Part shown: one piece after another, positions 17,403-28,771 of the stretch
Position numbering within the stretch: position 1 is the first letter of the stretch
How the letters are laid out: each line of letters starts with the position of its first letter
Assembly (NCBI GenBank): GCA_016214145.1
Contig: JACRPA010000005.1
Span: 372,001-436,000 of the forward strand
Length of the DNA: 64,000 nt
Direction of reading: 5' to 3'
Origin: Rhodocyclales bacterium
GTDB taxonomy: Bacteria; Pseudomonadota; Gammaproteobacteria; Burkholderiales; Rhodocyclaceae
Notes under the pieces: model-generated
What the model was told of the DNA's origin: nothing
The model's input: the letters and a program-made list of their open reading frames with translations, nothing else
Databases searched by the model: none
Position numbers and translations under genes: made by a program

Positions 17403-17605
17403 TGGAAATCCTCTACCTGCTGATCCCGCTTTCGGTCGTACTGGTCTTCGTGATCGGCGCGATCTTCTGGTGGTCGGTGAAAAGCGGGCAATTCGACGAT
17501 ATGGAAGGGCCGGGCTATCGCATGCTGATGGATGACGACCGCCCCAGACCCCAGGACAATGCGACCCAGGGTTCGGTCGATGCGGGGACAGAACAGCAAA
17601 AGTAA
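17402..17605 (+). CDS. ccoS: cbb3-type cytochrome oxidase assembly protein CcoS
   Basis: MEILYLLIPLSVVLVFVIGAIFWWSVKSGQFDDMEGPGYRML. Confidence 0.93.
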   Translation: MEILYLLIPLSVVLVFVIGAIFWWSVKSGQFDDMEGPGYRMLMDDDRPRPQDNATQGSVDAGTEQQK

Positions 17606-17625
17606 TGTCCGGAATCGATCACAAT

Positions 17626-17639
17626 TTGACCCACATCAA
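17626..17639. promoter_or_regulatory. FNR/ANR box TTGAC-CCAC-ATCAA
   Basis: Matches TTGAY-N4-ATCAA; centre 17632.5, with CATACT at 17662-17667 giving predicted TSS about 17674 (-41.5). Confidence 0.75.
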
Positions 17640-17673
17640 TTCTTTCTCAAGGTTCTTTATCCATACTTCACGC

Positions 17674-17752
17674 AAGGTTTTGGGCTTGGCAACGAGCCCG
17701 GAGTCTTGTCTCTCTGTTGGGGTTGGGGTGCGCATTGCGCACCCTTTTTTTT
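17674..17752 (+). ncRNA. Candidate FNR-activated small RNA
   Basis: FNR box and -10 upstream, 5' stem GGGCU/AGCCC, U/C-rich single-stranded stretch, perfect terminator hairpin and U8; no convincing CDS in the spacer. Confidence 0.6.
17726..17752 (+). terminator. Rho-independent terminator
   Basis: GGGTGCGC-ATT-GCGCACCC followed by TTTTTTTT. Confidence 0.9.
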
Positions 17753-17840
17753 GCCCCGGCATGCCTGGCAGGGATCCCCGGATATGCGGTGCGAGCCATC
17801 ATTGCCGGCTCAGGATTTGCGCGACCATGGCCAATTTGTA

Positions 17841-17864
17841 TATTAAGATACGCATATCTCAATA
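17841..17864. promoter_or_regulatory. Palindromic operator candidate upstream of the rrf2 gene (TATTAAGATACGCATATCTCAATA)
   Basis: 10/12 symmetric positions; overlaps predicted -10 TATATT (17839-17844); core GATA-N4-TATC recurs at 19408 and 20769. Confidence 0.6.
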
Positions 17865-17886
17865 GGCCTCCGCCAGGGGCTTCGAC

Positions 17887-18456
17887 ATGATCCTGTCCCG
17901 CACCAGCCAATACGCCATTCAGGCCCTGATTTTTATCGCAACCCAGCCCCGCGGGGTTCCCGTGCTGATTCGCACAGTCGCCGAGCACCTCGGCGTCCCC
18001 CCGCCTTACCTTGCGAAAATCATGCAAAGCCTCGGCCGTGGAAAACTGGTCGATTCCTTTCGCGGGCGGCAGGGCGGCGTGTGTCTGCGCGAGGGCGCCG
18101 AAACGACCGATTTGATGCAGATTCTCACCCTGATTGAAGGTCCGGGCTTGACAGAGAATTGCGTGCTCGGGCTGAAGGTATGCGGCGACGAAACGGCCTG
18201 TCCCGTGCATACCCAGTGGAAACCGATCAAGACACGAATCGTGAATCTCCTGAATCAGCAGACTCTGGGCAAGCTCGCCGCGGCCGTCCGGAGCGGGAAG
18301 TATCGGCTCACGGACCTACCGTTTGCCGCGCTGGAATCCGGGGGTGCCGCGAGAGGCGACGTGCAGGCGATACTTGCCCGTCCGCCAGGAGTCCGGGCGC
18401 GCCGTGCAGGCAGTGCGAAGTCGGTGCGCGCCGAAAACGTTGGCAAGCGCCCATAA
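17887..18456 (+). CDS. Rrf2 family transcriptional regulator with putative Fe-S cysteines
   Basis: MILSRTSQYAIQALIFIATQ...VAEHLGVPPPYLAKIMQSLGRGKLVDSFRGRQGG wHTH; ENCVLGLKVCGDETACPVH three-Cys cluster. Confidence 0.9.
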   Translation: MILSRTSQYAIQALIFIATQPRGVPVLIRTVAEHLGVPPPYLAKIMQSLGRGKLVDSFRGRQGGVCLREGAETTDLMQILTLIEGPGLTENCVLGLKVCGDETACPVHTQWKPIKTRIVNLLNQQTLGKLAAAVRSGKYRLTDLPFAALESGGAARGDVQAILARPPGVRARRAGSAKSVRAENVGKRP

Positions 18457-18481
18457 TTGCGCAACAGAGACGGTATTAGAG

Positions 18482-19237
18482 ATGTCCGGATCGAAGGTAA
18501 CGCCACTCCGTTCCGCGCTCGGTCAGCGGTGCGAGCCCATTGCCTGCGCGCAATGCGGAGTCTATCAATTGTGCCTTCCCCTCGGCCTGCATCAGGCCGA
18601 CTTGACGCTGCTGGAGAGCATCGTCAAACGCAAGGAAACCTACAAGCGCGGGCAACTCCTCTTCAGATCGGGTGAGCGCTTCGATTTCATTTATGCGATC
18701 CGCAGCGGCTCGGTAAAGACCTACGTCGGCGCACCGGATGGGCGCGTGCAGATCACCGGCTTCCATATCGCGGGAGAACTTCTGGGATTGAGCGCGCTTG
18801 AGTCGGGGCATTACAGTTGCGAAGCGCGGGCGCTCGAAACGACATCCGTCTGCAAGGTGGAGGCCGAGCGGCTTGGCGAACTGGCGCAAAGAATCCCTTC
18901 GATCCAGTACCAGATGCTGAAAATCATGAGCGGCCATATCCGTCAGGACGAGGAACTCATATTGCTGCTCGGGAAGAGGAATGCCGAGGAACGACTGGCC
19001 GAATACCTGATCGGCCTGTCCAGGCGCTTCGCCGCCCGTAATTATTCCCCGACGCAGTTTCACTTGAGCATGTCCCGCAGCGACATCGGCAACTATCTCG
19101 GCATTGCCGAGGAGACAGTCTGTCGCGTTTTGACCCGCTTCCAAAATGCAGGTCTCATCGCCACAAATCGGCGCTACGTTCGTCTGATCGATCTCAGGCA
19201 ACTGGAGGCGGTGGCGCGAATAAGCGTTGCCGCCTGA
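18482..19237 (+). CDS. FNR-type Crp/Fnr regulator (paralog 1)
   Basis: N-terminal CAQCGVYQLC, central HYSCEA cysteine, C-terminal HTH FHLSMSRSDIGNYLGIAEETVCRVLTRFQ. Confidence 0.9.
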   Translation: MSGSKVTPLRSALGQRCEPIACAQCGVYQLCLPLGLHQADLTLLESIVKRKETYKRGQLLFRSGERFDFIYAIRSGSVKTYVGAPDGRVQITGFHIAGELLGLSALESGHYSCEARALETTSVCKVEAERLGELAQRIPSIQYQMLKIMSGHIRQDEELILLLGKRNAEERLAEYLIGLSRRFAARNYSPTQFHLSMSRSDIGNYLGIAEETVCRVLTRFQNAGLIATNRRYVRLIDLRQLEAVARISVAA

Positions 19238-19357
19238 CCCCCGGCCCGCTTGTCGATTCCCGCACCTGCGCCAGCCTTTCCCCCGTTTCACCGGCAATTG
19301 AGTGCTCAGTTGGGGCAAGCCATTTGATTTGCAGCGTTACTTCTGCGGACACAAAGG

Positions 19358-19371
19358 TTGACGCATGTCAT
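19358..19371. promoter_or_regulatory. FNR-like box TTGAC-GCAT-GTCAT
   Basis: One position off a perfect palindrome; upstream of bacteriohemerythrin. Confidence 0.65.
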
Positions 19372-19407
19372 GGTTTCGGAATGACCGCCGTTCTTTTCCT
19401 GTATTAA

Positions 19408-19419
19408 GATAAATCTATC
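19408..19419. promoter_or_regulatory. GATA-N4-TATC operator candidate (within GTATTAAGATAAATCTATCC)
   Basis: Shares ATTAAGATA-N4-TATC with the rrf2 promoter. Confidence 0.5.
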
Positions 19420-19444
19420 CGATTATCTTTACAGGGGGGGCGTG

Positions 19445-19918
19445 ATGGATGCCTTGTTTGCCTGGTCCGACAATCTAAGCGTCGGCATCCAGGAAATCGA
19501 TGAGCAGCACAAGGTGCTGGTTGGATTGCTCAACGAACTCCATTCGGCAATCGCCGGACACAGGGGATCCACCGAGTGCAGGGGCGTTCTCGACCGGCTC
19601 GCCGAATACACGCGCGTGCACTTCGCCGTGGAGGAGAGCCTGATGCGCATCCTGGGTTACCCGGACCACGAGAACCACAAGCACGAGCACGAGTTGCTTA
19701 CCGCGCAGGTGGTCGATCTTCAGCAAAAGCTGGATGCCGGCAAGGCGGCGATCAGTTTCGAACTCCTCCACTTTCTCAAGGTGTGGCTGACCAGGCACAT
19801 CCACGAAAGCGACAAGCGATACGGAAGCCATTTTCTCGCGCGCGGCATCGAGGCTCGCTGGCCGGCGAAGGAAGCCGCCCCGGAGAAGAGGCGCTCCTGG
19901 ATGTTCTGGAGTCGCTGA
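19445..19918 (+). CDS. Bacteriohemerythrin
   Basis: W...LSVGIQEIDEQHKVLVGLLNELHSA, HFAVEESLM, HENHKHEHELL, HIHESDKRYG iron ligands; alternative GTG start at 19442. Confidence 0.94.
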   Translation: MDALFAWSDNLSVGIQEIDEQHKVLVGLLNELHSAIAGHRGSTECRGVLDRLAEYTRVHFAVEESLMRILGYPDHENHKHEHELLTAQVVDLQQKLDAGKAAISFELLHFLKVWLTRHIHESDKRYGSHFLARGIEARWPAKEAAPEKRRSWMFWSR

Positions 19919-19960
19919 ACCGATGCATTCAGCACCTGTTTTCTACTTGAGGAGTTCTTG

Positions 19961-20611
19961 ATGAAACGATCGATAAAACGGCTTCTGGCCCTGGCAGTCG
20001 CCTCCGCAGCATTGCCTGCGCACACGGCGTTCGCCGACGATGGCCCCTGGATGGTTCGCGCGCGCGCGGTCTATCTCGACACGGCAAACAAGTCCGGGGC
20101 GATCCCGCTGCTTGCCGTGCCGGCGGATGCCATCCACGTCGCTGACAAGACCATTCCGGAAGTCGATATCAGCTATTTTTTCACCAAGAACATCGCGGCC
20201 GAACTGATCCTTACCGTGCCCCAGAAGCATGGCGTAAAGGTCACGCAAAGCGCTATCGGATCCTTCAAGGCAGGCAGCTTCAGGCATCTGCCGCCGACGC
20301 TGACGCTGCAGTACCACTTCCTTCCGGACAGCCAGTTCCGTCCTTACATCGGCGCCGGCATCAACTACACGCGCATCACTAGCGACGACCTGGCCGTGCC
20401 AGGGGTCACCAAACTGCATCTCGATAACGATTCCTGGGGCGGGGCGCTGCAGGCGGGTGTCGATGCGAAACTCGGCAAGAGCCTGTTCCTCAACCTTGAC
20501 GTCAAGAAGATCTACATTCGCAGTGACGTGACGGCGTCCGGCCTGGGCAAGATCAGCCATGTCAAGGTTGATCCGCTTGCGGTCGGCATCGGTCTCGGCT
20601 GGCGTTTCTGA
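19961..20611 (+). CDS. OmpW family outer membrane protein
   Basis: Signal peptide; PWMVRARAVYLDTANKSG, PEVDISYFFTKNIAAELILTVPQKH, LPPTLTLQYHFLPDSQFRPYIGAGINYT. Confidence 0.93.
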   Translation: MKRSIKRLLALAVASAALPAHTAFADDGPWMVRARAVYLDTANKSGAIPLLAVPADAIHVADKTIPEVDISYFFTKNIAAELILTVPQKHGVKVTQSAIGSFKAGSFRHLPPTLTLQYHFLPDSQFRPYIGAGINYTRITSDDLAVPGVTKLHLDNDSWGGALQAGVDAKLGKSLFLNLDVKKIYIRSDVTASGLGKISHVKVDPLAVGIGLGWRF

Positions 20612-20719
20612 TGAATTCGAAGGTCCTGCGGGGTTACGGGGGCCCTATCTCCCACAGCACCCGGTTTTTATGCCCCCATAAAAACTTCGATAATTGTCAA
20701 AGAGTGGCGGTAGTTACTT

Positions 20720-20733
20720 TTGACATGAATCAA
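20720..20733. promoter_or_regulatory. FNR/ANR box TTGAC-ATGA-ATCAA upstream of ccoN
   Basis: Consensus match; TATCCT -10 at 20756-20761 gives TSS about 20768 (-41.5). Confidence 0.8.
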
Positions 20734-20768
20734 TCAGGAAATGATTATTTACAGGTATCCTTGTAATT

Positions 20769-20780
20769 GATAAGGGTATC
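20769..20780. promoter_or_regulatory. GATA-N4-TATC operator candidate at the predicted ccoN TSS
   Basis: GATAAGGGTATC; same core as at 17847 and 19408. Confidence 0.45.
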
Positions 20781-20830
20781 TTGCCTGTGCCCGAATACAA
20801 TCCTGCATTCCCAAAGTGAGGCCTTCCGTT

Positions 20831-22255
20831 ATGGACAACCAAGCGACGTACAACTACAAGGTAGTGCGCCAGTTCGCCGTGATGACGGTGATATGGGGCA
20901 TTGTCGGCATGCTGGTCGGCGTGATCATTGCCGCCCAGTTGGTCTGGCCGGAACTCAATCTGCATGAGTTTCTCGGTTACGGGCGATTGCGGCCGCTGCA
21001 CACCAATGCCGTGATCTTCGCCTTTGGCGGCTGCGCCCTGTTTGCCACCTCCTACTACGTGGTGCAGCGCACCTGCCACACGCCGCTGTTTGCGCCGGGC
21101 CTGGCCGGCTTCACCTTCTGGGGCTGGCAACTGGTGATTGTCCTCGCGGCGGTGACGTTGCCGCTGGGCATGACCAGCGGCAAGGAATACGCCGAGCTCG
21201 AGTGGCCGATCGACATCCTGATTACGCTGGTGTGGGTTTCCTACGCGGTGGTCTTCTTCGGCACCATCATGAAGCGCAAGGTGCCGCACATCTACGTCGC
21301 CAACTGGTTCTACGGCGGCTTCATCCTCACCGTGGCGCTGCTGCATCTGGTCAACAGCTGCGAGATTCCGGTCTCGCTGACCAAGAGCTACTCCTGCTAC
21401 CCCGGCGTGCAGGACGCCATGATCCAGTGGTGGTACGGCCACAACGCGGTGGGCTTCTTCCTCACCGCCGGCTTCCTGGGGATGATGTACTACTTCGTGC
21501 CCAAGCAGGCCGAGCGCCCGGTGTATTCCTACCGCCTCTCGGTGGTGCACTTCTGGGCGCTGATCTTCACCTACATGTGGGCCGGCCCGCACCATCTTCA
21601 CTACACCGCGCTGCCCGACTGGGCCCAGTCGGTCGGCATGATCTTCTCGCTGATCCTGCTGGCGCCTTCCTGGGGCGGCATGATCAACGGCATCATGACC
21701 ATGTCGGGCGCCTGGCACAAACTGCGCGACGACCCGATCCTCAAGTTCCTCATCACCAGCCTGTCCTTCTACGGCATGAGCACCTTCGAGGGCCCGATGA
21801 TGTCGATCAAGACGGTGAACGCCCTGTCGCACTACACCGACTGGACGGTCGGCCACGTGCATAGCGGCGCCCTCGGCTGGGTGGCGATGATCTCCATCGG
21901 CTGCATCTACTACCTGATCCCGCGCCTGTTCGGCAAGGCCCAGATGCACAGCGTCAAGCTGATTACCGCGCACTTCTGGATCGCCACCATCGGCGTCGTG
22001 CTCTACATCGCCGCCATGTGGATTGCCGGGGTGATGCAGGGGCTCATGTGGCGCGCCACCAACCCGGACGGCACGCTCACCTACGCCTTCGTCGAGAGCG
22101 TCAAGTCCACCTATCCGTTCTGGACCATCCGCCTGCTGGGCGGCCTGATGTTCCTCGGCGGCATGCTGCTGATGGCCTGGAACGTCTTCAAGACCATCGC
22201 CGGCGGCAAGGCCTATGACGCACCGGTGCTGGCGCCTGCCGGGCACCACGCCTGA
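20831..22255 (+). CDS. ccoN: cbb3-type cytochrome c oxidase subunit I
   Basis: [88 protein letters not shown]. Confidence 0.97.
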
Positions 22256-28670: not shown

Positions 28671-28696
28671 GCTGCCCTCCTGTGAGAGATGGAATC

Positions 28697-28737
28697 ATTA
28701 TAGGAAGCGCAACCCGATAGCGATTGACGCAGATCAA
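28697..28737 (-). promoter_or_regulatory. FNR-dependent promoter: FNR box TTGAC-GCAG-ATCAA (28724-28737) and minus-strand TATAAT (28697-28702)
   Basis: Box centre lies about 40.5 nt upstream of the TSS predicted from TATAAT on the minus strand. Confidence 0.75.
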
Positions 28738-28771
28738 GCATGATACTGCTATCACGGGAACAGAATGCAGC

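Follow-up and report, generated by a model that had tools for sequence, protein, structure and literature searches.

Two promoters within the cbb3 oxidase cluster of a Rhodocyclales bacterium carry a conserved palindromic operator of about 28 bp, with the general form TATATTAAGATA-N4-TATCYKATTATC. One promoter precedes rrf2, the gene of an Rrf2-family regulator, and the other precedes the bacteriohemerythrin gene bhr. At bhr the operator is coupled at nearly fixed spacing to an FNR-type box, and the operator occurs in the same genomes as rrf2. The reading that we hold to be probable from these comparisons is that Rrf2 binds and represses at both operators whereas FNR activates bhr. The signal for Rrf2 would not be NO but redox, O2 or Fe-S status.

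The window (the whole 64,000-nucleotide stretch that was analysed) is part of a 3.42-Mb genome and holds a cbb3 oxidase cluster with rrf2, fnr, bhr and ompW placed between ccoS and ccoN. The rrf2 gene (17887-18456, + strand) encodes a putative Fe-S regulator of the Rrf2 family, assigned by Pfam PF02082 (E 8.7e-28), a score above the cut-off of the rrf2_super model and an alignment of 27 orthologues. The product of fnr (18482-19237, +) belongs to the FNR subfamily (NF008365, 252.6 bits, cut-off 228), and an N-terminal C-X2-C-X5-C motif was read in its sequence. They are followed by bhr (19445-19918, +; NF033749, 151 bits, cut-off 84) and by a gene for an OmpW-family outer membrane protein (19961-20611, +; PF03922, E 1.6e-40). 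Only 42 bp separate bhr from ompW, and the two genes probably form one operon.

Alignment with relative L135, together with gene maps, delimits the rrf2-fnr-bhr-ompW cassette to 17757-20656 (+). In L135 the counterpart of window positions 17600-17756 directly abuts that of 20657-21000, which leaves an empty site immediately downstream of a terminator. A ccoS to ccoN order free of the module was also seen in genomes of the same genus (G073, G010 and G121) and of other genera (G069, G124 and G131). Whether the cassette stands between ccoS and ccoN varies across genomes. The nearest named relatives of the locus are bins of Betaproteobacteria that bear the labels Rhodocyclaceae, Rhodocyclales or Sulfuritalea. 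Between ccoS and rrf2, the segment 17627-17752 (+) contains an FNR box (TTGACCCACATCAA), a conserved CTCTCTGTTGGGGTTGGGG stretch and, at its end, a strong terminator. It is a probable FNR-driven small RNA and is kept in most relatives, the rrf2-less ones included. Its Rfam matches, SorY (31.9 bits), SorX and AniS, are all under the gathering scores.

The original prediction had proposed one operator common to the rrf2, bhr and ccoN promoters, and the three strings on which it rested are indeed present. The rrf2 site, TATATTAAGATA-CGCA-TATCTCAATAGG, occupies 17839-17866 (+; core 17847-17858), and the predicted symmetry of 10/12 over 17841-17864 was confirmed. The bhr site, TGTATTAAGATA-AATC-TATCCGATTATCTTTA, occupies 19400-19431 (+; core 19408-19419) and is conserved in 18 loci. 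When the window was scanned with a matrix trained on relatives alone, the rrf2 site scored best (32.1) and the bhr site second (29.5), the next best score, in the symmetrised matrix, being 1.8. The core GATA-N4-TATC occurs four times in the 64-kb window against 0.16 expected from shuffles. The genome holds nine copies (a control pattern gave one), of which four lie within 11 kb at this locus; the other five look intragenic or, in one case, lie in a short AT-rich repeat. Genome-wide, exact degenerate patterns were used rather than the matrix. The extended motif WTYARGATA-N4-TRTC was found exactly twice in the 3.42 Mb, in the rrf2 and bhr promoters, and its control was found nowhere, so the motif survived the proposed test against background frequency.

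The symmetry of the sites is centred on the N4 spacer. In rrf2-type sites 0.78 of half-position pairs agree at the GATA-N4-TATC centre and 0.57 at the second best centre. The corresponding values for bhr-type sites are 0.69 and 0.62, the latter owing to one more TATC that is conserved downstream. This TATC (19424-19427, eight bases past the core) is present in 17 of 18 bhr-type promoters, is not a feature of rrf2-type promoters, and might serve as an additional half-site or as a -10 element. L055 and L057 carry almost perfect 28-bp palindromes centred on the N4. The spacer preference is strict: RGAY-N6-RTCY was found in 16 of 44 cco-linked rrf2 promoters, against 0-1 at any other spacer length and 0.9 in shuffles. 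In both promoters the operator overlaps TATATT, a probable -10 element, and at rrf2 the left arm, which contains this hexamer, may double as the -10. As TATATT and other -10-like hexamers lie inside the block, its conservation might be that of nothing more than a core promoter, with -10 and start region. A palindrome of about 28 bp with a strict N4/N6 spacer preference, common to two unrelated promoters and missing from the FNR-driven promoters of rrf2-less genomes, argues against this explanation, to which we give almost no weight.

Among relatives, the palindrome also precedes rrf2 in L040, L041, L044, L046, L049 and L050, whereas several other close relatives have no such palindrome before rrf2, and hence autoregulation is not general. 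Phylogenetic footprinting of the three promoters, one of the checks proposed at the outset, recovered the bhr site and, in some relatives, the rrf2 site, but the ccoN site was not conserved.

The coupling to FNR was examined in 80 gathered Rrf2 relatives with flanks of up to 10 kb, which with the window gave 81 loci. The ccoN gene is nearby in 44 of these, usually with fnr in between. In 18 loci (the window and 17 relatives) an FNR-type box, AAAGGTTGAC-N4-RTCA, precedes the palindrome in the promoter downstream of fnr; in the window this conserved box is TTGACGCATGTCAT (19358-19371, +). The distance between the centres of box and operator is 49.0 bp in 12 loci and 48.0 bp in 6. This bears out the proposed coupling at bhr, and the spacings of 49 bp (bhr) and 48 bp (ccoN) first reported for the window were reproduced. 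Information content resolves two conserved blocks, the FNR box at -4 to +13 and the operator at -9 to +23 around the G of GATA, and the DNA between them is variable with little conservation. The segment immediately upstream of the bhr FNR box (19346-19357, GGACACAAAGG) is conserved almost like the box itself.

The original prediction also had both FNR boxes acting from -41.5. This geometry fits ccoN, where the box TTGACATGAATCAA (20720-20733, +) and the -10 candidate TATCCT (20756-20761), 29.5 bp from the FNR centre, are both conserved in L040 and G073. It does not fit bhr, because the -10 position expected for FNR at -41.5 is variable in the 18 loci. The conserved -10 candidates at bhr, TATATT and TATCYT, are 6 and 30 bp downstream of that position and would put FNR at -47.5 and -71.5, respectively. 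As FNR would then not be at -41.5, even its activation of bhr is putative.

The bhr coding sequence has been deleted repeatedly. In L041, L042, L044, L046 and L050 the 19434-19844 region is affected and a 3' remnant is left, most breakpoints falling immediately past the operator and close to codon 133 of bhr. The FNR-operator promoter is nevertheless kept upstream of ompW or ccoN in these five loci, as it is in L043, L047, L048, L051 and L056, where no bhr was found. The idea that the operator exists solely because of hemerythrin was therefore rejected. Since the promoter that stays behind faces ompW or ccoN, an indirect influence of Rrf2 on the cbb3 (cco) genes by read-through is possible.

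The GATA-N4-TATC string at ccoN (20769-20780, +) is a look-alike that we judge not to be an Rrf2 operator. The nearest rrf2-containing relative, L040 (ccoN 94% identical), reads TTATGTGGGTATCTTG at this site, having lost the GATA half, and the remaining rrf2-containing relatives have a different ccoN promoter from which the site is absent. Conversely, G010, a genome of the same genus that lacks this Rrf2, reads GATAGGGGTATC at the position, and G073 does not. A string lost in L040 yet present in rrf2-less G010 is not tied to Rrf2. Nor was it among the top ten window matches of the relatives-trained matrix, and the same was true of the fourth GATA-N4-TATC (28742-28753, +), which lies between usp (- strand) and a beta-CASP MBL gene (+ strand) and is judged a chance occurrence. 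The latter was rejected as an operator because the core is not conserved in the usp promoters of relatives, whereas the FNR box is. This usp promoter (28696-28737, - strand) has its FNR box at 28724-28737 and a TATAAT at roughly the distance expected.

These observations bear on the three-promoter proposal in its full form, in which one operator directly joins rrf2, bhr and ccoN under an NsrR-like protein sensing O2/NO. The proposal can draw on GATAAGGGTATC, 48 bp from the FNR box before ccoN, and on an operator match outside the training set in L106, a distant relative, where it lies some 200 bp ahead of ccoN. Its difficulties are the distribution and low rank of the ccoN string just described and the lack of the NsrR Asp8 in Rrf2, and we regard it as highly improbable. 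What stands is the operator shared by rrf2 and bhr, in both the degenerate motif and the matrix.

The presence of this operator follows that of Rrf2. An orthologue (at least 74% identity; next best about 30%) was found in 6 of 151 family genomes, and the FNR-operator pair was found in exactly the same six. Odds such as 1/C(151,6) overstate this co-occurrence, as the genomes are related. The operator site being linked to rrf2, the co-occurrence is also partly co-inheritance. A slightly looser FNR-operator pattern gave three scattered matches in 368 other genomes of a class-wide sample. In G087, fnr is kept before ccoN, and neither rrf2 nor the operator is present. Outside its training set, the matrix matched sites before rrf2 (L115), ompW (L094) and ccoN (L106), and in L063 and L069 it matched before multihaem cytochrome operons 2-5 kb from rrf2. 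At that threshold no match arose in random sequence of equal size, and matrices with mirrored column permutations averaged 0.7 matches (maximum 7). It is most likely, judging from these sequence patterns and from the presence of only one other Rrf2-family gene in the genome, that the neighbouring Fe-S Rrf2 binds the rrf2/bhr palindrome, as had been proposed.

Rrf2 relatives adjoin multihaem cytochrome operons (L063, L069, 10000-18300), haem O synthase/cytochrome oxidase genes (L081) and nitrogenase-like genes (L107). For relatives with no cco genes nearby, these neighbour names rest on reading of the sequences.

The palindrome might instead be the site of another regulator, cassette-borne or general, such as IscR or Fur. 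The genome encodes one other Rrf2-family protein, which is IscR-like by score, and the GATAA...TTATC of the bhr site is faintly like a Fur box. However, IscR-like proteins are encoded in nearly all family genomes, whereas the operator is confined to the six with this Rrf2. The Fur box is a 19-bp GATAATGATAATCATTATC sequence, and the Fur assignment was rejected on geometry: the symmetry centre at the N4 of GATA-N4-TATC and the near-perfect palindromes of L055 and L057 do not fit this form. Binding by another regulator is quite improbable.

Rrf2 belongs to its superfamily by both models searched (PF02082, 97.5 bits, cut-off 30; TIGR00738, 98.5 bits, cut-off 73.3), although it passes no curated subfamily cut-off. 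It scored 57.6 bits against a cut-off of 207.55 for the IscR equivalog TIGR02010, and 46.3 bits against 182 for the NsrR equivalog NF008240. The ligands of E. coli IscR are Cys92, Cys98, Cys104 and His107, and the fourth ligand of S. coelicolor NsrR is Asp8 (PMC5411485). In 27 orthologues, down to 55% identity, C92, C99, C105 and H108 are invariant, in agreement with the Cys3His set of IscR except that the first two cysteines are spaced C-X6-C rather than C-X5-C. Position 8 is an invariant Gln, and the NsrR-type Asp8 is absent. Set against the known ligands, these residues make the ligand set IscR-like, from which our guess, by analogy, is that Rrf2 carries a [2Fe-2S] cluster. NO sensing, part of the original prediction, is not indicated, given the invariant Gln8 in place of Asp8 and the IscR-like ligand set. 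An AlphaFold2 model (pLDDT 75.5) matches the structures of RsrR, CymR, IscR and NsrR. The gene is not located in an isc or suf operon; its neighbours are ccoS, fnr, bhr, ompW and ccoN. In the open-access papers searched for an Rrf2 regulator of cbb3 or bacteriohemerythrin, this subgroup is not described.

The following mechanism would accommodate these data. Fe-S Rrf2 would bind the palindromes of about 28 bp at the promoters of its own adjoining gene and of bhr. At low O2 the bhr(-ompW) promoter would be activated by an FNR dimer whose centre is 48-49 bp ahead of that of the operator, and Rrf2 lying over the -10/start region would shut out RNA polymerase until its Fe-S cluster was lost or changed. 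The promoter would fire with FNR active and Rrf2 off; NO would not be the signal to Rrf2, which would sense redox, O2 or Fe-S status. In this strain Rrf2 would likewise limit expression of rrf2. Alternatively, Rrf2 could bind the same operator as an activator or a cluster-dependent dual regulator, acting with FNR rather than against it. IscR, another member of the Rrf2 family, both activates and represses, and the nearly fixed 48/49-bp spacing would also suit cooperation. However, in both promoters the operator lies over the likely -10/start region, which favours occlusion, and we consider this alternative unlikely.

A broader picture may be drawn, which we put forward tentatively. An undescribed Fe-S Rrf2 subfamily, having an operator of its own of about 28 bp, might act together with FNR as a two-sensor switch that is carried by an exchangeable rrf2-fnr-hemerythrin-ompW cassette in cbb3 clusters. 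As FNR needs low O2 and Rrf2 would leave only when its cluster is changed, the promoter might open only in a narrow O2/redox band. The near-fixed FNR-operator spacing and the presence or absence of the cassette provide a natural system for the combination of two Fe-S sensors on one promoter. An uncharacterised Rrf2 subgroup of sulfur-oxidising and related Betaproteobacteria, whose genes adjoin those of FNR, cbb3 oxidase or multihaem cytochromes, gains a candidate DNA site and a first list of targets, for which the ccoN look-alike is a clear negative.

Among known systems, NsrR shares with this Rrf2 the family, three cysteines and repressor sites (putative ones for Rrf2) that cover the promoters of genes related to NO or respiration. 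It differs in having Asp8 and in its motif, gATGyAT-N5-ATrCATc, which has GAT-N13-ATC spacing (PMC1274295) where the operator described here has GAT-N6-ATC, a distinction that the original prediction had drawn correctly. NsrR identity and the NsrR motif were rejected on these grounds (a model score below cut-off, no Asp8 and GATA-N4-TATC in place of the NsrR site). RsrR and CymR are the best structural matches of the Rrf2 model. Identity to them is about 25%, and the conserved C92/C99/C105/H108 set of the protein studied here is IscR-like. FNR-activated cbb3 clusters resemble this locus in having FNR boxes before cco genes and fnr in or near the cluster; here an rrf2-fnr-bhr-ompW cassette that is absent from sister genomes lies inside, with its own operator. 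The E. coli [2Fe-2S] protein IscR is similar in fold, family, Cys3His ligands and a long palindromic operator. In contrast to IscR, Rrf2 has one residue more between the first two cysteines and Ala rather than Glu at position 43, its putative operator is GATA-N4-TATC, and its partners are FNR and respiratory genes rather than isc.
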